A DNA stretch of 64,000 nt, taken from Patellaria atrata CBS 101060 (Eukaryota > Ascomycota > Dothideomycetes > Patellariales > Patellariaceae). The position numbers were made by a program, and so were the translations under genes. This document shows positions 4,142 to 50,214 of this stretch, in pieces. Below the pieces are notes generated by a model. The model made no database searches. It had not been told where the DNA came from and saw only the letters and a program-made list of their open reading frames with translations. The stretch's first letter is position 1. Every line of letters starts with the position of its first letter. Location of the stretch: NCBI GenBank assembly GCA_010093705.1, contig MU006089.1, positions 291,570 to 355,569 of the forward strand. Reading direction: 5' to 3'.

Positions 4142-6883
4142 ATGTCATCAAGAGATTCAGATCCCCCCAGGCGTCGGAGGAAAGAATACGACGCAAAACC
4201 CAAGGACAAGGACAGGGACAAGGAGCGCCATCGAAGTCATAAATCTTCACGCCGCAAATCTGAAAAAGACCCTGAGCGTGAATCCAGCACGCGCGACCGT
4301 TCTCCGCCTACCCGCACTCGGTCGCATACACACTCGCATAAGAAGATGGCAGTATCGATTCCCGAGATGGAACGGCGGGCTTCCACCGCGTCGCCTGGCG
4401 CTTCTAGGACGAGTCTTCCGTATCCTAGCTTCTCGAAAGCACATAGTAAGGAGGCTGTCCGGAGTAAAGAAGAGTTTCCGACTCAGCCTAAAGTATCAAT
4501 GTACACTCCAGATCCAACAGATCTCGGCCAGGGAGACGAAACAAGTGAGGATATACCAAAAACGGGAACGCAGCAGACCGCAGGCGGAGGAGAAGCACCA
4601 CCTAGTCCACCGCTCACCGCAGTAGAGCCGGAGCTAAGAAGAACGAGCAGTGGTAACAGCATGAGGAGAGTGACAGTGGAAGTGGGCTCGGACGTGGAGG
4701 CCAGAAGAAAAATGTCTAAAGAGGGGTTGAGAGCGTCGTCGAGACCCAGGTCGTCAGCTTCAAAGTCAAGTTTGGGACAGACGGTGCAGATTATAGACGA
4801 TGGGTCTCAACTATCAGGTATTACGGAATCCTCGAAACCGAGCACTGTGCGGGAAGTGTCACCGATGGTTGTAATACTAGGAGATGGCTCTGGACTAGGT
4901 GCCCATGGAAGGAGGAGTAATCGGACGCCATCCGGGATAGGCTCGCAACGGAACTCCATAGTTACCCAGTCGACTACAGACTCTGACGCGACATCCATCG
5001 CTCCTGAGCGAAAAGCACAACCCAGACCCCCCGCGCTAATCAACCACAATGAGTCTTCCCCTCTATCTATCATGGAATCGTCTCCACGGACACCGACACC
5101 TCGAGACGTTACCTTTCCCCCTGTCGACCCAGACCAGAAAGATCCACCGATGGTTCAGATCTTCACAGACGATGACTTCCGAGCTCAATCCGTAGGAGCA
5201 ATGCATGCCCCCCCACCCCCTCCACCTCCTCCACCGCCTCCACCGCCCCCAACGATGAATACTGCAGATTTACCTCGTGTTGACTATCTACTTCACAACG
5301 GCGGGTTATCACAGCCACTCCCTAAGAACATGCTATCAGCAGTAACCCCGTCCGCCCCAGTCACCACTTACCATCAATATCAATCTCCTCGTATTGGCGA
5401 TCAAAACCCCCGTCTAAACGTCCAACAATTTTTCGCTCCAATCATAAATGTACTAGACGGTTACTCTCAGGTTCTCTCCAAAAATGGATCGATAGCAGTA
5501 GCGACGGGATATCGCTCTGTAGCGCGGCGTCTATTAGACCGGCTTGAGGCTGTATTTGCTCGCAATATCTCATCAGAAACGTGCGACTGCATAATGTGTA
5601 GATCAAATCCAAACCGCCCTCTATCTGAGGAAGAGGATACTGGTCTAAGTTGGGGTGAAATATTAGAATATGTCTCGGGCCGGCGAGAACTACCAATGTG
5701 GCCTCCATTTTCGATTGCACCAAATTCGGATGGTACAGAGGGACTCGGAATTATAGGCATGGAAGCTCCCATGCAAAAGATGGACATCGACGTCCCAGAA
5801 GAGTATCGAGCCCATTACGTCCGGCAGAACAAAAAAACCAAAAATACAGTGCAGAAATGGTTGGCAAGTCAACCAGATATGCCTTCAAGCCCTCCTCAGG
5901 ATGTTGATGATAACACCCTCACATTTGCAATCTTAACTCACCTTGAACCGGAGAAGAGACCTATTTTCAATGCACTGCTACGGGGCATGTCCACTTTACC
6001 AGCCTCACGTGCTCCAACGCCGATGGAGAACCCAAGATCTGAGTTATTGCAAAAGACATCTCTAGCATTGCAACGACTATACCGTCTCACAGACCCTCCG
6101 CGGGATGCTGAATGCACGTTATACTTATTGAACAATCCAGAATTGCATGGCATATTAGTAACCATTGCAGCGGTAAGTGCTGGAGAATGGGATCTTCTAA
6201 TATCTGGGAGATTCGATGGGTTCTTGTGGAGCGGGGCAGAAGACCCCTATCCGCGTCCCTTTGATCCGGGCACAATTTCTAGAGGACCATCCAGAGGACC
6301 GGTAGCAACACCGCTTTCCAGGACAACGACTCCATTCAGCATGGGCATCCCCTCCCGAGGTGCGACGCCATTCCGAGTCGGAACTCCTCATAACCCCATG
6401 TTCATGCCTTCACGATCTCAAACACCGGCAATAGGTGCAGGGTTTGGTGCACCCGTGCAGATGGACGAGGAAACCGAAATCGCCGTCCTTGCGGAAGTTG
6501 AACGAGAAATATACCTCGGGATGGAAGCGCTCGAAGACGCTTTTGAGGCTTTACATAGCAAAGCAGAAGGGGTCCGACGCGCGCTACGTGAGAGGAGCAC
6601 CGGCCTAGCCATGGCCGCGCAGGCCCGTCGAGGCTCCGGAGCCGAAGACATCGGGGTTAGGCTTGGCACACCGGCTTCCGGCATTGGGGGCTGGGGGGGA
6701 ATGGGGTGGGAAAGTGAGACAGACGATGGGGTTGATGATAGGAGCGAGATCGCACCAGATGATTCGGCGAGCAATATAAGTTATAATAGAAGGAGGGGTC
6801 CGAAGAGGAGGCATGCGAGGGCGACGCCAGCCCCGGTGGAGGAGGAGGATGAGAGTGGAACGGAAGAGGTGATGGTAAGGTAG
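4142..6883 (+). CDS. Conserved fungal protein, 913 aa, unknown function
   Basis: A single uninterrupted exon. Residues 1-415 are disordered and rich in Arg/Ser/Lys (SR-like N-terminus with RDKERHRSHKSSRR), followed by a proline tract of about 14 residues at roughly 357-370. Residues 423-700 form a folded block with strong helices (LNVQQFFAPIINVLDGYSQ) and a Cys cluster CDCIMC near residue 480 that could bind metal. A second helical stretch near residues 785-815 (EIAVLAEVEREIYLGMEALEDAF) could be a coiled coil, followed by a basic/acidic tail. No catalytic motif is visible. I cannot name a family and assign no function. The ATG at 4142 is the first in frame and has an acceptable context (TATCATG). 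Confidence 0.85.
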   Translation: MSSRDSDPPRRRRKEYDAKPKDKDRDKERHRSHKSSRRKSEKDPERESSTRDRSPPTRTRSHTHSHKKMAVSIPEMERRASTASPGASRTSLPYPSFSKAHSKEAVRSKEEFPTQPKVSMYTPDPTDLGQGDETSEDIPKTGTQQTAGGGEAPPSPPLTAVEPELRRTSSGNSMRRVTVEVGSDVEARRKMSKEGLRASSRPRSSASKSSLGQTVQIIDDGSQLSGITESSKPSTVREVSPMVVILGDGSGLGAHGRRSNRTPSGIGSQRNSIVTQSTTDSDATSIAPERKAQPRPPALINHNESSPLSIMESSPRTPTPRDVTFPPVDPDQKDPPMVQIFTDDDFRAQSVGAMHAPPPPPPPPPPPPPPTMNTADLPRVDYLLHNGGLSQPLPKNMLSAVTPSAPVTTYHQYQSPRIGDQNPRLNVQQFFAPIINVLDGYSQVLSKNGSIAVATGYRSVARRLLDRLEAVFARNISSETCDCIMCRSNPNRPLSEEEDTGLSWGEILEYVSGRRELPMWPPFSIAPNSDGTEGLGIIGMEAPMQKMDIDVPEEYRAHYVRQNKKTKNTVQKWLASQPDMPSSPPQDVDDNTLTFAILTHLEPEKRPIFNALLRGMSTLPASRAPTPMENPRSELLQKTSLALQRLYRLTDPPRDAECTLYLLNNPELHGILVTIAAVSAGEWDLLISGRFDGFLWSGAEDPYPRPFDPGTISRGPSRGPVATPLSRTTTPFSMGIPSRGATPFRVGTPHNPMFMPSRSQTPAIGAGFGAPVQMDEETEIAVLAEVEREIYLGMEALEDAFEALHSKAEGVRRALRERSTGLAMAAQARRGSGAEDIGVRLGTPASGIGGWGGMGWESETDDGVDDRSEIAPDDSASNISYNRRRGPKRRHARATPAPVEEEDESGTEEVMVR
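5208..5253 (+). repeat. Polyproline-coding C-rich tract
   Basis: Alternating CCC/CCT/CCA/CCG codons within the 913-aa gene encode an uninterrupted proline run, a likely ligand for SH3, WW or profilin-type domains. Confidence 0.7.
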
Positions 6884-11381: not shown

Positions 11382-14300
11382 ATGGTTCAATTAGTGAAGT
11401 TGGCGACATGCCAGCTCAATCAATGGGTTCTGGACTTTGAAGGCAATGCCGCACGCATCATCGAATCCATCAAGCATGCTAAAGAGCAGGGTGCTACTTT
11501 CAGACTCGGCCCAGAGCTTGAGATTACTGGATATGGATGTCTGGATCACTTTTTGGAGAACGACACTTATGGTGAGTATCTCTGTTAGTATGGAGATTAT
11601 AACTGACCTTGACCCGTTGCACATAGATCATTCATGGGATATGGTAGGGACATAACATTCTAATCATGTGATGTTATGCTGGGAATGGATGGCTAATGTA
11701 GGGTTATTGAAGATTGAACGGATCATTACGCATCCAAACTGCCAGGATGTAAGTCCTTCCTGATGTTTTATACGACTCAGATAGTAACCAAATAGAATAG
11801 ATACTAATCGACCTGGGTATGCGTACTCCTATTCTGAAATGTTACTGTTGTACTTAACACCATCCTCTTTTAAGGGGCACCAATCATGCATAAGGGTCTC
11901 AGACTGAACTGTAGAGTTATCGTTCACAACAGCAAGATTGTCCTGGTCAGACCAAAACTATCACTTGCCAATGATGGTAACTTTAGAGAGGTTAGAATCT
12001 TCGAATGATATTTGGCACAGCTGTTCTGAAGACTGGGTTTAGATGCGGTATTTTACGCCTTGGCCGAAAGGAGTGCTCGAGGATGTGAGTAAGGTGTTCT
12101 TCACTACAATTTTGAGATACTTACAGACATTTGTAGTTTTATCTTCCAGACGTTATCCGAGAGTCTACAGGTCAAGTCAAATGTGAGATTGGGGAGTGTG
12201 TGCTCAGACTTCAAGATACCGTCCTAGCCCCTGAAACATGCGAAGGTTGGTTTACAACAGTCAACTCTTTAAGGGCGGTTACTAATCAGCATTTAGAATT
12301 ATTTACACCGAATGGTCCATCGATCGCTCAGGGGTTAGATGGTGTAGAAATTTTTACGAACGCGAGCGGTAGCCATCATAGTGTAAGTCTATAGATGGGG
12401 AAATTCCAAGTTGAGAATAGATTTCTAAATAACTCAGTTAAGGAAGCTAGATCAGAGGTTACAACTTATCCTTGAGGCTACGGTAAGTTATATCATACTC
12501 CATCTGCAATTTTCTTGCGTGTCTAGACCTTGAATAGAGAAAATCAGGAGGAGTATATATGTACAGCAATCAGTGCGGCGGAGGTAATCAATCCCTGAGG
12601 TAGAATGGTGACTCAATACTAAAGGTTCCATGTAGATGGTGACCGACTCTACTATGACGGTTGCGCGATGATCGTGATAAACGGCAAGATAAAGGCTCAG
12701 GGAAGTCAGTTCTCCCTAAAAGATGTCGAAGTTCTTACAGCTACTGTAGACCTCGTAAGTGATAACACCCCCCTTTGAATGCTGAAAAATAGATATTGAT
12801 TAATACAGGATGAAGTGAGGTAAACTACCCTTGTATCCTTCTAGCACCATATCCCTAACTGTTGAATAACAGGTCATACCGATTTGCTCCGAGTAGAGCG
12901 TAAGTCACCCAGATTATGTATTACCCTTGGACACTACTTATAATCTCAGCCTACAAGCAGTAGAGCAACTTCGCAATGGAAACAGCCTAAAGAGAATTGA
13001 ACTACTCGAGTATCGGTTGTCTCGCAAGAGTGCCGTTATTGATTTCAGCTTGAAACCTTCACCGACCCTCGAACCGCGGTACCACACACCTTCCGAAGAA
13101 ATTGGCATGTGTGGTGGTGCTTTCCTGTGGGATTATCTACGGTATTCTATTGGTTTTCATGCCCCGATAGTTATCACTTTACTAACTAATATCGTAGACG
13201 GAGCCGCCAAGCTGGCTACTTTATTCCCCTATCTGGTGGTAAGTTGACATCCTCATTATTCATCCCCTTTGTTAAGTGAAATGTTAGGTATCGATTCCTG
13301 CGCGACATCCGTCATGGTTTTCAAGTAAGTGCAGACCCATGTTCATAAGTTGAATATGTTGAGACTGACAGAATCTTGCAGTATGTGTAGAATGGTGCTC
13401 CAAGCTATTGATGAGGGCGATAAACAGGTCATAGCAGACGCTCGTCGTATTTCTGGAGAAGCTGAGGACTCAGATTGGCTACCGAAATCACCTCAGGAGC
13501 TATCCAACAAGATATTCCATACTTGCTTTATGGGCAGTGTGAATAGCTCGAAAGAGACTCGGTTTGTTCCCGTAGTATTATAGTCTGAGACAATATTAAC
13601 GTACGGTATAGTTCTCGAGCTAAAGAACTAGCTGCGAATATTGGAGCGTAAGCAGTTTTTATTAGGGCTGCAGATCTATAACTAATATCACTTAGCTATC
13701 ATATAGACTTAAATATCGACAGTGTAGTTACTGCTTTAACGACTATGTTCTCCGCGGTCACAAACTTCGTACCCAGGTTTAAGGTGAGTATTACTTCCTA
13801 GGCAAAACTCTAAAGACAATACACTCACATATTCTAAGCTACATGGTGGAACCGCGACGGAAAATTTAGCGTAAGTACAACAGTCTTTCACGTACACACA
13901 AATGGCTGATAGTGGTTAGACTCCAAAATATTCAAGCAAGACTACGAATGGTTATAGCTTACATGTAAGAGACTTCCCTTTTACGTACATCAATCCCCTA
14001 ATAAAAGCCGACAGGTTCGCGCAACTTCTACCGTCTGTAAGACAACGACCTGGAGGTGGCGGTCTACTAGTACTGGGAAGCGCGAGTGGGTGCCCCTTCT
14101 AGAATTCTCTATGCCATTTACTGACTTTAAAAAGATGTTGACGAATGTTTGCGTGGATGTAAGGAGAGCGGGACTCAACCTATTTATATATATCTGACTA
14201 ATTTGTTCATCATAAGACTTAACAAAGTACGATTGTTCTTCAGCAGATATCAACCCCATAGGTAGGAACACTTTACAAGTTCAAAAACTTCCTCAATTAA

Positions 14301-15091
14301 TCATGTAAAGGTGGCATCTCGAAGACCGATCTGAAAGGATTCATCGCGGTAGGTTAAAATGGCAGCAGAGTTCACCACTACAGCGCTGAATTACAGCAGT
14401 ATGCGCAAGAACACTACGACCTCCCTATTCTAGAAGGGTTTCTATCCGCTGTCCCAACAGCAGAGGTACGAAACCACTGTCCCACCCCAAACGAATTGCA
14501 TCTACTTACAAATATAATAGCTCGAGCCTATTTCGGAAACATATGTCCAGTCCGACGAAGCAGATATGGGCATGACTTACGACGAGCTCAGTCAATTTGG
14601 CACCCTCCGCAAGGTCCACCGACTTTCGGGATACGGGATGTGGCAGGCGCTGCTGCATCTCTGGGGAGATCGACTTTCTCCCAGACAGGTCTATGAGAAG
14701 ACGAGGTGGTTCTTTTGGTGTTGGGCCGCTAATAGGCATAAGATGACCGTCATGACGCCTGCGTTGCATATGGTGAGTCTATATTAGCGCAATTCCATGT
14801 CACTGTTTGTGTGATTGAGGGAAGTAAGAAAGAAAGGGAAAGGGGAAGCAGGTGTTGTTGAGCTTATAAGGTTAACGGAGTGATAGGAACAATACTCCCC
14901 GGATGATAATCGTTATGATTGTAAGTTTAACCCTTTCCTTTTGTAGGGAGTTTGTGATTAGATCCAGCAAAGTTAACGAATTGCTAGTACGTCCCTTCGT
15001 CTATCCCGTGTTCTCGTGGCCGTGGAAGAAGGTCGAGGACGCTTTGAAGGTATTTGAGAGCGAGGAAGCCAAGGCAAAAAAGACGGAGTGA
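11382..15091 (+). CDS. QNS1: Glutamine-dependent NAD+ synthetase, 29 exons
   Basis: Converts deamido-NAD to NAD using glutamine, the last step of NAD synthesis. My model joins 29 exons (11-252 nt), total 2145 nt, 714 aa. The N-terminal nitrilase-type glutaminase carries Glu45 ([10 protein letters not shown]), Lys114 ([11 protein letters not shown]) and Cys174 (APETCEELFTPNG), the expected Glu-Lys-Cys triad. The C-terminal synthetase has the PLSGGIDSC ATP-pyrophosphatase loop near 362-369, and also [22 protein letters not shown] and SPDDNRYD. Exons: 11382-11571, 11627-11643, 11713-11748, 11801-11816, 11875-11990, 12043-12084, 12137-12245, 12297-12382, 12438-12482, 12538-12583, 12636-12754, 12809-12819, 12873-12899, 12950-13141, 13198-13238, 13288-13324, 13382-13561, 13612-13647, 13696-13783, 13839-13870, 13920-13964, 14015-14085, 14135-14158, 14217-14261, 14311-14348, 14400-14465, 14521-14772, 14887-14920, 14988-15091. 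All phases close, so the gene looks intact. Confidence 0.95.
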
Positions 15092-45353: not shown

Positions 45354-47796
45354 ATGGCAGAATTCACCTTCGACGCGGAAGAAGACTTTGCTGAGGTAAA
45401 ACAACTGAACGAAAAAGTTGTAAGTATTGTCGAGTGCTCAGTGCATCTTACTCATCGATGTTGTACTAATCAGTTTATTAGCTTTCTGATCCGGATGATT
45501 TTGAGTCCTGGGAGAAGCTTGTAACAGCCGCACAAGGTCTCGAGGGAGGCCTCAACCGAAACTCGAGCGAACAAGCTATCACGTTTACGCGTATCGTCTA
45601 CGATAGTTTTCTCCAAAAGTTCCCATTGTTCTTCGGATACTGGAAGAAATATGCAGACCTTGAGTTTTCAATCGCTGGCACAGAGGCCGCCGAGATGGTG
45701 TGTACAGTCTCGCTGGGCGTACTCCTGCCCATTCAGCTGACGTATTGATAGATATACGAGCGTGGCGTCGCAAGTATCTCAAGCTCTGTTGATCTTTGGA
45801 CGAATTACTGCACCTTTAAGGTGGAGACCAGTCATGACTCGGATGTCATTCGAGAGTAAGTATCAATGGCAAAACTTTCCTTCCCCCATAACAGTCCATC
45901 GAACGTCAGCGCCGGTGCTAAGTCCCGGCAAGCGTCCTCCGGCTATCCACAGAGCACGCTCAAGCGAATTTTGCCATGGGTGAGAAAGTCTACACCAAGC
46001 ATCCCGCTGATTTACTTCTTACTCTCAATGTTCAGATTGTTTCCTTGTTTTCGCTCCGCTCATTACATCTAACTCGTGGGACGTTTAATTTTTCCCGAAA
46101 TTGCTGAAAATATGCATGGAAACTCTACTGCAAGAGACACGAGATCTGATCGATTCTACCTACACTGTTTGCTGCCCCTCCTCGTCCCCCCTAGCTCTCC
46201 CATAAATTTTTATGTGGCTAACCGTTCGGTTTAGACTTTTTGAGAGAGGTGCAAACTTTGTTGGTCTCGATTTTCTTTCCCATCCGTTTTGGGACAAGTA
46301 TCTAGAATTTGAAGAGCGTCTTGAAGCCCCGGATCGCATCTTTGCGATCCTCGATCGCATCATCTCGATTCCGATGCATCAGTACGCGCGCTACTTTGAG
46401 CGATATCGACAATTAGCTGCTCAACGTCCTGTTGCAGAGCTTATCCGCTCCGAGAATTTGGCACCGTTACGTGCAGAACTAGAACTTGAGTTAAACCAGA
46501 AACGCAAATCGGACGTTGAGACTGAGCGTGAGCTACGCGCAAGGATTGACGTCCTTCATCTCGAGGTCTTCCATAGAACTCAGACTGAAACGACAAAGAG
46601 GTGGACCTATGAGCAGGAGATCAAGAGGCCATATTTCCACGTTACCGAGCTGGACGATGCACAACTCGCTAATTGGCGCAAATACCTCGATTTTGAGGAA
46701 GCAGAGGGTGACTTCTCTCGGATAACTTTCCTGTACGAGCGTTGCCTGGTTACTTGTGCGTACTATGATGGATTCTGGATGCGGTATGCCAGATGGATGC
46801 ATCTACAACCGGGCAGGAATGAGGAGGTACGCCACATATATCAGCGTGCTTGCTCTTTCTTTGTGCCGATCGCAAAACCTGCAGTGCGCCTCCACTATGC
46901 GTGGTTTGAGGAAGCCTGTGGACGCATTGATGTGGCTCAAGCGATTTTCGAGTCAATCCTGATCAAGCAACCAAACTATGTCGAAACAATCATTGAGATT
47001 GCTCATCTCAGACGCCGTCATACGGGACTGGACTCGGCTTTTGCGATCCTTCAAGAGTACATTGACGCCAAAGATTCCGACTCTAGAACCAAAGCTGCGC
47101 TGGTTGCGGAATGTGCTGAGATGTTATGGAAGAACAAGGGCTCACCTGAAGAAGCACGAGCTCTATTTGAGAGGCATCAGCCTTACTACTCTGGAGTTAG
47201 CTATTTCTGGAACACGTACTTCAGGTTTGAGTTGGGGCAACCAACCAGTGAAGCGACAGAACGGACGCAATTTGTGCGCATCAAAAAGCTTCTCGCTGAT
47301 GTACGCAAAAGCGAATTACCGGCCCACAATATCAAGCAGCTTGCGCATGTATACATGGAATATCTACAGAAGCGTGGAGGTCCCGGGGCTGCGAAGGAGT
47401 ACATGCAGCTCGATCGTGAAGTAAACGGGTGAGTTCATCCCTTTTTCATCTCGCGTTGTGAACAAGCTTTTTAGAATGCGATATGACACCTTGATGGTTG
47501 GTACGCAACAGCACTGACGTATCGCCTTCCCGGTCTGCAGTCCTATAAGTGTGCAGAACCTGGGCAAGATTACAGGTACTGAATCTGGAGACTTGACAAA
47601 TGGTCATCCAGGCATTCATGTTGAGGACGATCTTGCTCATGGCAATGAAAATTCCTACAGCAAATTCGTTCAACTCCAGTCTGAGCAGACGACCATGGTC
47701 AACGGACAAGTAAGAGAGACCGACCAACTTGTCCAAAAGGCTTTCAAGTCGACTGATGATGCTCTAGCCGAAAATCGCGTAAACGGTGAACGGTGA
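45354..47796 (+). CDS. PRP39: U1 snRNP / pre-mRNA splicing factor PRP39 (HAT-repeat protein)
   Basis: Five exons: 45354-45419, 45482-45697, 45752-45855, 46235-47428, 47541-47796, giving 611 aa, close to the family length. PRP39 is a U1 snRNP-associated protein made of HAT helical repeats that helps define 5' splice sites. Recognisable HAT units include FLQKFPLFFGYWKKYADLE, LSHPFWDKYLEFEER, ANWRKYLDFEEAEGD, YDGFWMRYARWM and RLHYAWFEEACGR. The HAT register runs straight from IRE into LFERGANFVGLDFLSHPF across intron 3. That intron is 379 nt, six to eight times longer than the others here. The last exon is a polar tail rich in Glu/Asn/Asp with no repeat. Start ATG context is ACAATGG. Confidence 0.93.
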
Positions 47797-48387
47797 ACTG
47801 AAAAGTTTCATAGTAGCCTAATTATCTTTCAGATACGTGTCACCTGAGATTACCTTTCGAGATCTCCCTAGGCTCATCGGGGAGCTATCAATACAATTCT
47901 AGGAGCATTCCTCAACGGCGAATAGGATGGATCTTAATTGAAGAGTACAGGCGCAATGTAATCGCGGGTCTCCTTTGGTTCAGTCTGTGGGTTCTTAGTT
48001 CTCTGTACGTAACTGAAGTCAGTTGAATGAATAGAAGAAATGACGATGGTGATGTTACCTCAAAAGTGCAAGATTGGGAAATTCGATGTGACAATTTGAC
48101 CGAAGGTACATGAAATGTCAGAAGGGAAGTGTGCAGGTATACTATAAAGCTTAGTATGACTTAAGAGGCGGACAAGGGAGCTTATCCATGACCTTCCCCA
48201 AACGGGTTGTGAGCTCTCACATCCCTTGTTAACCAACATTCACCACTTAGCACAACCAGGATTCAGTCATCATGCTTCCTTCGCCTTCGCCCTCTTTTAC
48301 TTCTCTACCTCCCGCAATACCCTCTCTCTCTTCCCCCCCCCTTTCCCCCCTCTATCTCACTTCCTCAATTTCCCCTTTTCACCCACA
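47797..48387. other. Intergenic, about 0.6 kb
   Basis: Promoter side of the gamma-glutamyltransferase gene, with a strongly C/T-rich leader at 48290-48370 (runs of C7-C8). No gene seen. Confidence 0.5.
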
Positions 48388-50214
48388 ATGCCTCCCCTAA
48401 ATTCCACTCTCACCGCGTTGCTAGCTTTCGCCGGTCAACTCGCATTCGCAATCCCAACGGCCCATCGCATACCCAAACTCGGCGCCGTAGCTTCCGAGAC
48501 CTCGGAATGCAGTCGAGTAGGCATCGACCTGCTCAAAGCCGGAGGAAATGCGGCAGATGCTATGGTCGGGACGGTCTTTTGTGTTGGAGTTATCGGCATG
48601 TACCATAGTGGGGTGGGCGGCGGAGGGTTCATGCTCGTTAGAGGCAGCAATGGCAGTTATGAGTATATTGACTTCAGGGAGGCGGCACCAGCAGCAGCTT
48701 TTGAGGATATGTATACGAATGCTACGGAGAAGAGTCTGCTTGGGGGTTTGGCTAGGTGAGTGTCTTGTCACTTGCACGGTTACATTAACTATAACCTCAT
48801 AGTTAGTAGGTATATAAGCTGACAAGTTGCATAGTGGTGTACCCGGAGAATTGAGGGGACTCGAGTATTTACATAAGACCTACGGGGTCTTACCGTGGGC
48901 TAAAGTCATGGCGCCAGCTATCAAGTACGCCCGTTGCGGGTTCAAAGTCTCAGCGGATCTTGTGAGGAATATGAAATCTGTTTCGGCGGACTCTAACTTC
49001 CTGACCGAGGATCCAACATGGGCAATTGACTTTGCGCCAAATGGGCGTTTACTGCAGTTGAATGAAACCATCACCAGGAAGCGATATGCGGATACGTTGG
49101 AGTCTATTGCCCAGCAAGGTGCAGATGCTTTCTATACCGGCGCAATTGCAAATGCTACAATTCAAGCTCTGAGGAAGCAGAATGGGACCATGACGCTCGA
49201 GGACCTGAAGAACTACACTGTAGCTATTAGGAAGCCGGCAGAGATTGACTATAGAGGCTACAAGGTTCGGAGCGTTAGTGCTCCTGCTTCCGGTGCCGTG
49301 GCTCTAAGCATACTCAAGACGCTAGAAGGGTATGAAGGAGTGGGAGATCCAGCCCAGTTCAATCTAACAACCCACCGACTCGACGAAGCCATGAGATTCG
49401 CTTACGGCGCAGTAAGTTTCCCATAACCTCATAATATAAACATAACTCCGACTCATAAACCATTTAGCGTGCCAACCTCGGCGATCCCTCATTCCTCCCA
49501 AACCTCACTACCTACCAGACCGCAATGCTCTCATCCTTGCATGCCGCCGAAGTCCGGTCCTTGATCTCCGACGATTACTCCCACCCCAACGTATCCTACT
49601 ACTCCCCCGAAGGACTCGAATCGCTCGACACGCCCGGCACCAGTCACATATCCGTCGCCGATTCCACCGGGATGGCCGTCTCCCTCACCACGACCGTAAA
49701 CCTGCTTTTCGGCTCCAAACTGATGGTCCCGGAGACCGGCGTCATCATGAACAACGAGATGAACGACTTCAGCATCCCCGGCAGCAGCAACGCCTTCGGC
49801 TACGTCCCGAGCCCAGCCAACTACGTCCGCCCCGGCAAGCGGCCTCTCTCCTCCATCTCTGCGAGTATCGTCGAGACCCCGGACGGGGAATTCTACTTCG
49901 CGATCGGCGCCGCCGGCGGGAGCCGCATCATCACCGCCACCACGCAGAACATCGTCAACGTCTTGGATCGCGGCTTCGACACGCACGATGCGCTCGCGCA
50001 ACCGAGACTGCACGATCAGCTGACGCCCAACTTGGCCAGTCTGGAGTACAGCTTTGACAACGGCACCGCGGAGTTTTTGCGAGAGAGGGGCCATAACGTC
50101 ACGTACGTGGCCGAGGGTATGAGTGCCGCGCAGGGGGTTAGGAGGCTGGGGAATGGGACTTTCGAGGCGGCGGGGGAGCCGAGGCAGGGGAATAGTGGGG
50201 GCTTTGCTGTGTAG
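48388..50214 (+). CDS. Gamma-glutamyltransferase (glutathione hydrolase), secretory
   Basis: Three exons, 48388-48755, 48835-49411, 49468-50214, giving 563 aa. Cleaves the gamma-glutamyl bond of glutathione outside the cytosol (vacuole or cell surface). The first 22 or so residues form a signal peptide (LTALLAFAGQLAFA). The heavy chain has GAVASETSECSRVGIDLLKAGGNA and GVGGGGFMLV. The autoprocessing/nucleophile Thr is at about 373 in DTPGTSHISVADS, followed by AVSLTTTVNLLFGSK. The small chain has GKRPLSSISASIV and GAAGGSRIITATTQNIVNVL. Several Asn-X-Ser/Thr sites (NGS, NAT, NLT, NVS, NGT) fit a glycosylated secretory protein. The third exon is markedly GC-rich. All phases close. Confidence 0.95.

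Follow-up and report, generated by a model that had tools for sequence, protein, structure and literature searches.

A QNS1 gene with 28 introns in the ascomycete Patellaria atrata, and where its introns may have come from

Introduction

The origin of new introns is an old and unsettled problem; as a rule, gains are seen dispersed over many genes. This article concerns a single gene with many introns: QNS1, encoding the vitamin-B3 enzyme glutamine-dependent NAD+ (nicotinamide adenine dinucleotide) synthetase, which has 28 introns in a stretch of 64,000 nucleotides (nt) from Patellaria atrata CBS 101060. The stretch, here called the window, covers positions 291570-355569 of contig 1, in a genome of 28.29 Mb and 46 contigs. 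Papers are cited by PubMed Central number, each for the part of its text that was accessible.

The closest described system is the same gene in Fusarium. In four species (F. verticillioides, F. circinatum, F. oxysporum and F. graminearum), QNS1 has 14, 14, 14 and 12 introns, second among 226 core genes whose mean is 2.53, and it is the only gene reported to differ in intron phase among the four (PMC5677156). The most intron-rich core gene there is CTP synthetase, with 15 (PMC5677156). Both Fusarium and P. atrata are filamentous ascomycetes with short introns (the Fusarium core-gene median is 57 nt; PMC5677156) and a similar ratio of phases; they differ in that Fusarium has 12-14 introns in QNS1 and P. 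atrata 28. An intron-rich QNS1 is therefore on record, in print and from one genus, for a second class of Pezizomycotina. This precedent removes much of the surprise, though not that of the doubling to 28. The gene of P. atrata is real and was correctly described, it is extreme in degree, and it was foreshadowed by Fusarium (PMC5677156).

A second parallel is the alpha-amylase gene of Agaricomycotina, where one gene likewise contains 8-22 short introns (mean 13.3), a number well beyond the genome average, from a source that could not be identified (PMC3584928). That gene came by transfer from a bacterium and resides in intron-rich basidiomycetes (PMC3584928), whereas QNS1 looks native and resides in an intron-poor genome. 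The literature search found no published QNS1 with 28 introns, subscription journals being mostly beyond its reach. The human orthologue, NADSYN1 (structure 6ofb), is likewise full-length, with both domains, and is encoded by a multi-exon gene of 20 introns. The one intron boundary of the human gene found in print is not common to QNS1 (PMC10866660).

With 28 introns in a genome otherwise poor in them, and 12-14 in Fusarium, QNS1 offers a single locus on which many gains and losses could be dated along one tree, and it bears on whether traits of individual genes favour the keeping or the arrival of introns. I consider it a moderately interesting case for studying how introns are gained. Genes cut up in this fashion are also prone to mis-annotation.

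A complete gene in 29 exons

The gene model comes from a spliced protein-to-DNA alignment, purpose-written, whose first guide was a provisional sequence of yeast Qns1. It gave 28 introns, 29 exons and a coding sequence (CDS) of 2145 nt for 714 amino acids. All 28 junctions were recovered with each of three other guides, from a Poribacterium (locus L037), an Anaerolineae bacterium (L065) and a putative protist (L068), and none of these changed when branch-site scoring was removed. The human guide (6ofb) recovered 27 of the 28, because of a tandem acceptor, CAGCAG, at intron 25, and added one spurious terminal intron. An ab initio gene finder, used without homology, with codon tables trained on the genome itself and splice weights set by hand, predicted one gene from the same start to the same stop, likewise with 28 introns. 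Its CDS is 1914 nt, so several junctions must differ from those of the spliced alignment.

The introns are short, 25 of the 28 lying between 48 and 58 nt; introns 2, 27 and 28 are longer (69, 114 and 67 nt). The shortest exons measure 11, 16 and 17 nt. Retention of any one intron would disrupt the reading frame in 27 cases of 28, the exception being intron 7 (51 nt, free of stop codons). Weak donors are found at introns 5 (GTTAGA), 7 (GTTGGT), 14 (GTATTC) and 17 (GTTTGT).

The predicted protein matches human 6ofb over residues 4-695 (E 7.2e-242). Pfam finds an N-terminal CN_hydrolase domain (PF00795, 118.9 bits), the glutaminase, fused to a C-terminal NAD_synthase domain (PF02540, 86.3 bits), and of the NCBIfam models just one for a domain, TIGR00552, exceeds its cut-off. 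The motifs are in place: the E motif from residue 43 on, VRPKLSLAN at 111, APETCEELF at 170 and SGGIDS at 363. I take the first three to supply the E-K-C triad of the glutaminase and SGGxDS to be the P-loop. By sequence, then, the gene encodes a full-length glutamine-dependent NAD synthetase. A sequence-only reading of this DNA had arrived at the very same start, stop, intron and exon numbers and lengths of CDS and protein, and had pointed to exons of 11-17 nt, to the four weak donors and to an intact set of catalytic residues; the alignment bears it out in each.

A search of the genome with the protein gave 11 matches, all 11 inside the QNS1 locus. A search with PF02540 gave one match above cut-off (29 bits), in a frame of 572 amino acids that by eye is presumably GMP synthase, and is a poor test of copy number, for it missed the split QNS1 itself. 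Judged from the protein search, QNS1 is the only copy found and apparently the only one. The enzyme is essential in yeast; since the gene is intact as well, it is presumably expressed. The 28-intron gene is thus confirmed as a matter of sequence, and I infer that all 28 introns are spliced in the cell.

Intron density against the rest of the genome

The comparison rests on a sample of 304 kb, about 1% of the genome, made up of the window and loci L017-L036 and L072-L075 and partly masked (15,047 of its first 264,000 bases). Leaving aside predictions with masked bases, a score of 50 or less, or a CDS below 600 nt, 46 other predicted genes contain 111 introns, or 1.10 per kb of CDS, and the densest has 6.26. 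This background falls inside the range of 0.81-1.16 per kb given for conserved regions of euascomycete genes (PMC2246297). QNS1, at 13.07, is about 12 times denser and the farthest outlier in the sample.

The statement that QNS1 lies far beyond the other genes therefore stands (13.1 per kb against 1.10, with a maximum of 6.26 in 46 genes). The accompanying statement, that the others have zero to eight introns, survives a rough check for 10 of 12 other genes predicted in the window (0-4 introns); the remaining two are predicted to have 9 and 12 and look like fusions of neighbouring genes. One of them, an ab initio prediction at 45354-50214 on the forward strand, merges the splicing factor PRP39 with a downstream gene, presumably a gamma-glutamyltranspeptidase, and is a trap for annotation.

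The implied uniqueness of QNS1 is weakened. The second densest gene of the sample, at L021:4048-7192 (reverse strand), is of the MutS family, MSH4-like as I take it, with 14 predicted introns, or 11 under other settings. Exportin-1 (CRM1), at L072:114-3095 (reverse strand), is predicted to have 11 introns, in a model that is incomplete and ends near the edge of the locus; with a score of 38.6 and a length of 2289 nt it had been removed by the filter, and it too counts against uniqueness. Its best match in PDB, 4fgv, scores 1121 bits and the next 808; I assume these to be from Chaetomium and from yeast. Within the analysis, this match and the intron density are what point to a filamentous ascomycete, the 5.8S rRNA model (RF00002) giving no match in the genome among the 39 of 839 candidates scored. 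Intron-rich genes thus form a tail in this genome, with QNS1 at its far end in the sample. The 12-14 introns of Fusarium QNS1 likewise weaken uniqueness (PMC5677156).

Properties of the introns

The introns are spread evenly along the gene, with 10, 8 and 10 in successive thirds of the CDS (Kolmogorov-Smirnov p 0.85). The lengths of the exons show the variation that random breaks would produce. Reported intron gains in fungi likewise lacked a significant positional bias (PMC532390). The phases, 11:9:8, are indistinguishable from 215:172:147 in Fusarium core genes (p 0.99; ratio from PMC5677156).

Set against 93 introns from 40 other predicted genes, those of QNS1 more often have GTRAGT donors (13 of 28 against 18 of 93, p 0.006), less often branch sites that fit CTRAY strictly (11 of 28 against 57 of 93, p 0.05; with the looser YTNAY, 24 of 28 against 83 of 93), are lower in median G+C (0.377 against 0.430, p 9e-5) and are shorter (median 52.5 against 58 nt, p 0.037), contrasts that are suggestive only, the one set being protein-guided and the other ab initio.

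Table 1. Exons of QNS1 in the window, with features of the adjoining introns
Feature	Position	Strand	Basis
QNS1 gene, glutamine-dependent NAD+ synthetase, start to stop codon	11382..15091	+	spliced alignment, ab initio, 6ofb match, Pfam
exon 1, with glutaminase E motif (residue 43 on)	11382..11571	+	spliced alignment; motif role presumed
exon 2, 17 nt	11627..11643	+	spliced alignment
exon 3	11713..11748	+	spliced alignment
exon 4, 16 nt	11801..11816	+	spliced alignment
exon 5, glutaminase K motif VRPKLSLAN, then weak donor GTTAGA	11875..11990	+	spliced alignment; motif role presumed
exon 6	12043..12084	+	spliced alignment
exon 7, then intron 7 (GTTGGT, 51 nt, sole frame-keeping intron if retained)	12137..12245	+	spliced alignment
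exon 8; glutaminase C motif APETCEELF interrupted by intron 7	12297..12382	+	spliced alignment; motif role presumed
exon 9	12438..12482	+	spliced alignment
exon 10	12538..12583	+	spliced alignment
exon 11	12636..12754	+	spliced alignment
exon 12, 11-nt micro-exon, identical with all guides	12809..12819	+	spliced alignment
exon 13, 27 nt	12873..12899	+	spliced alignment
exon 14, then weak donor GTATTC	12950..13141	+	spliced alignment
exon 15, start of synthetase SGGIDS motif, interrupted by intron 15	13198..13238	+	spliced alignment
exon 16	13288..13324	+	spliced alignment
exon 17, then weak donor GTTTGT	13382..13561	+	spliced alignment
exon 18	13612..13647	+	spliced alignment
exon 19	13696..13783	+	spliced alignment
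exon 20	13839..13870	+	spliced alignment
exon 21	13920..13964	+	spliced alignment
exon 22	14015..14085	+	spliced alignment
exon 23, 24 nt	14135..14158	+	spliced alignment
exon 24	14217..14261	+	spliced alignment
exon 25	14311..14348	+	spliced alignment
exon 26, tandem acceptor CAGCAG upstream; start 14397 or 14400 both possible	14400..14465	+	spliced alignment
exon 27, longest, 252 nt	14521..14772	+	spliced alignment
exon 28, longest intron (114 nt) upstream	14887..14920	+	spliced alignment
exon 29, includes stop codon	14988..15091	+	spliced alignment

Retention or gain

I propose that P. atrata has its own, intact and only-found QNS1, in which some older introns are joined by lineage-specific gains, mostly no longer recognisable as to origin, and I would put the probability of this at about 60%. 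In filamentous ascomycetes, QNS1 would be a gene that holds on to its introns and goes on acquiring new ones, a process pushed in this lineage to 28. Part of the 28 would probably be older and shared. Most would probably be gains of the lineage, too old for the source sequence to be recognised. The 28 are short GT-AG introns of the usual kind, and each is presumably excised singly by intron definition, the established view of fungal splicing; that each intron is recognised as a unit is suggested by introns of about 50 nt next to exons of as few as 11. Even small rates of failure at each of 28 introns would together leave less full-length mRNA. This cost might conceivably serve regulation. That more of the introns were gained than retained, and that the cause lies in QNS1 itself, is my inference.

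For the ancestor of ascomycetes, reconstruction gives a density of at least 2.77 introns per kb over conserved regions (PMC2246297). An average share of that stock would therefore give a gene of this length about 6 introns, not 28. Positions can be compared with 20 GT-AG introns of the NAD synthetase of L068, the one other eukaryotic structure of this gene that was found, setting aside its last predicted intron (6494-6613, judged spurious) and a 33-nt stretch that is not GT-AG. None of the 28 coincides exactly and one lies within 1 nt, where chance gives a mean of 0.78 (p 0.55). Sharing is at the level of chance and L068 is probably too distant, so it fails as a test of ancestry. The human boundary, known from the variant c.1765-7T>A, falls between what would be residues 598 and 599 of QNS1, and the nearest intron of QNS1 comes after residue 585 (PMC10866660). 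No further boundaries of NADSYN1 were found in the accessible parts of PMC8227568, PMC8535205, PMC10745350 and PMC9925382. These comparisons of number and position favour gain, thinly.

Several points weigh against my proposal. Phases and even spread are weak evidence, and an even spread fits retention without loss from the 3' end equally well. L068 is a poor comparator, presumably a protist, whose introns of about 33 nt could every one have been gained in its own lineage, and a single human boundary amounts to almost nothing. With these two as the comparators, all 28 introns could in principle be ancestral to the clade. Lastly, intron richness peculiar to a gene is not carried over universally: CTP synthetase looks intron-poor in P. 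atrata over the stretch seen. Its N-terminal domain (G000:C14:385704-386584) spans 881 nt for domain positions 30-265 (about 708 nt of coding sequence), and the domain ends inside an open frame of 382 amino acids, as judged from match coordinates only.

The alternative nearest at hand is pure retention: an early fungal ancestor would already have had a QNS1 as rich in introns, of which this lineage gave up few, for example owing to low transcription of the gene where loss through reverse transcripts occurs. The fungal ancestor was indeed intron-rich (PMC2246297), as is QNS1 of Fusarium (PMC5677156), and the even spread, with no bias to the 5' end, is what the absence of loss through complementary DNA would leave. 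Other conserved genes of P. atrata, those for exportin-1 and the MutS-family protein, are intron-rich too. It is a good deal to ask of retention, however, that it account for twice the Fusarium number and for a density, 13.1 per kb, above the human average of 6.7 (PMC2246297), and that none of the positions be common with L068 or with the human boundary, weak as both comparators are. I regard it as a tentative alternative and rather doubtful.

A bolder idea is that QNS1 is a recurrent hotspot of intron gain, filled independently, without copied sequence, in different lineages of filamentous ascomycetes and elsewhere, as in the protist of L068. Transcription, R-loops or chromatin of the gene would attract gain or block loss. 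If so, NAD synthesis would depend more than usual on efficient splicing. I offer it as a conjecture that is less probable than not by a wide measure.

Possible foreign or copied origins

The sequence-only reading also raised transfer from an intron-rich donor, for instance a basidiomycete or other intron-rich fungus whose QNS1 replaced the native gene. Sizes of introns and exons would suit a basidiomycete gene, and the introns are slightly shorter than others of the genome (52.5 against 58 nt, p 0.037). QNS1 also has the longest branch in a small protein tree. In that tree, however, it groups with the provisional yeast guide; the trees took in human, that yeast sequence, L068 and bacteria only. 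Codon usage speaks for a native gene: in leave-one-out scores for codons, dicodons and synonymous choice, QNS1 is mid-range, with 13, 23 and 28 of 43 genes lower, and by codon usage it does not look foreign. Nor does transfer sit well with an intron-rich QNS1 within ascomycetes (PMC5677156). The protein itself evolves somewhat fast. In an alignment of eight proteins, the columns where one sequence differs and the other seven agree number 27 for QNS1, 21 for L068, 18 for the human protein, 10 for the provisional yeast sequence and between 4 and 11 for each of the four bacterial ones. I consider transfer very unlikely and not supported.

Less probable still is that introner-like or stwintron-type copies entered the gene in a recent burst. 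The introns do deviate somewhat from others of the genome, being lower in G+C, richer in GTRAGT and poorer in CTRAY. They are nonetheless mutually unlike, as had been said of them by eye: in an all-against-all comparison of the 28, the best local score is 11.0 and the mean shuffled maximum 10.7. There is no likeness to the flanking exons (mean 6.3, shuffled 6.1), and the DNA of the gene matches only itself in the 28.3-Mb genome, in a search that could miss diverged copies of 50 nt. The hallmark of introners, many near-identical introns throughout a genome, is not seen for those of QNS1. Recent copies are thus disfavoured, while old ones would be invisible. As to stwintrons, where an inner intron interrupts a splice element of an outer one, only introns 2, 27 and 28 exceed the 48-58 nt of the others, no search aimed at the structure having been made. 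An origin of the introns by tandem duplication was also considered and rejected, the similarity of intron to exon being no higher than shuffled.

That the 28 introns are an artefact, an over-split model or a decayed pseudogene misread as exons and introns, is scarcely credible: several donors and branch sites are weak, yet three guides give all 28 junctions and the human guide 27, the protein is full-length with its catalytic motifs, and this is the sole copy found of an enzyme essential in yeast.

Related NAD synthetases

A search of the collection genome_contigs gave 34 loci related to QNS1, 33 of them bacterial (by title and by reading) and the other L068; a scan of viral_contigs found no relative. 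The bacterial loci, L037-L067, L069 and L070, come from metagenome-assembled genomes (MAGs), 30 loci from Poribacteria and 3 from Anaerolineae, and encode eukaryote-like NAD synthetases 52.5-56.7% identical to fungal QNS1. In 32 of the 33 the alignment is unbroken over nearly the whole protein; L046 aligns in two pieces. These proteins are far nearer to fungal QNS1 than is the solved bacterial enzyme 3ilv. In a tree whose outgroup is the very distant 3ilv (branch 7.2) and from which L046 was omitted, the eukaryotic proteins nest among the bacterial ones, with supports of 87, 75 and 78, hinting at a bacterial source or at a transfer.

The last locus, L068:3677-6530, is on a contig filed as a Verrucomicrobiaceae MAG. 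It encodes an NAD synthetase with 20 GT-AG introns of 28-41 nt and, in addition, one 33-nt stretch that is not GT-AG. To judge by that structure it looks like a eukaryotic contaminant, a protist with ultra-short introns.

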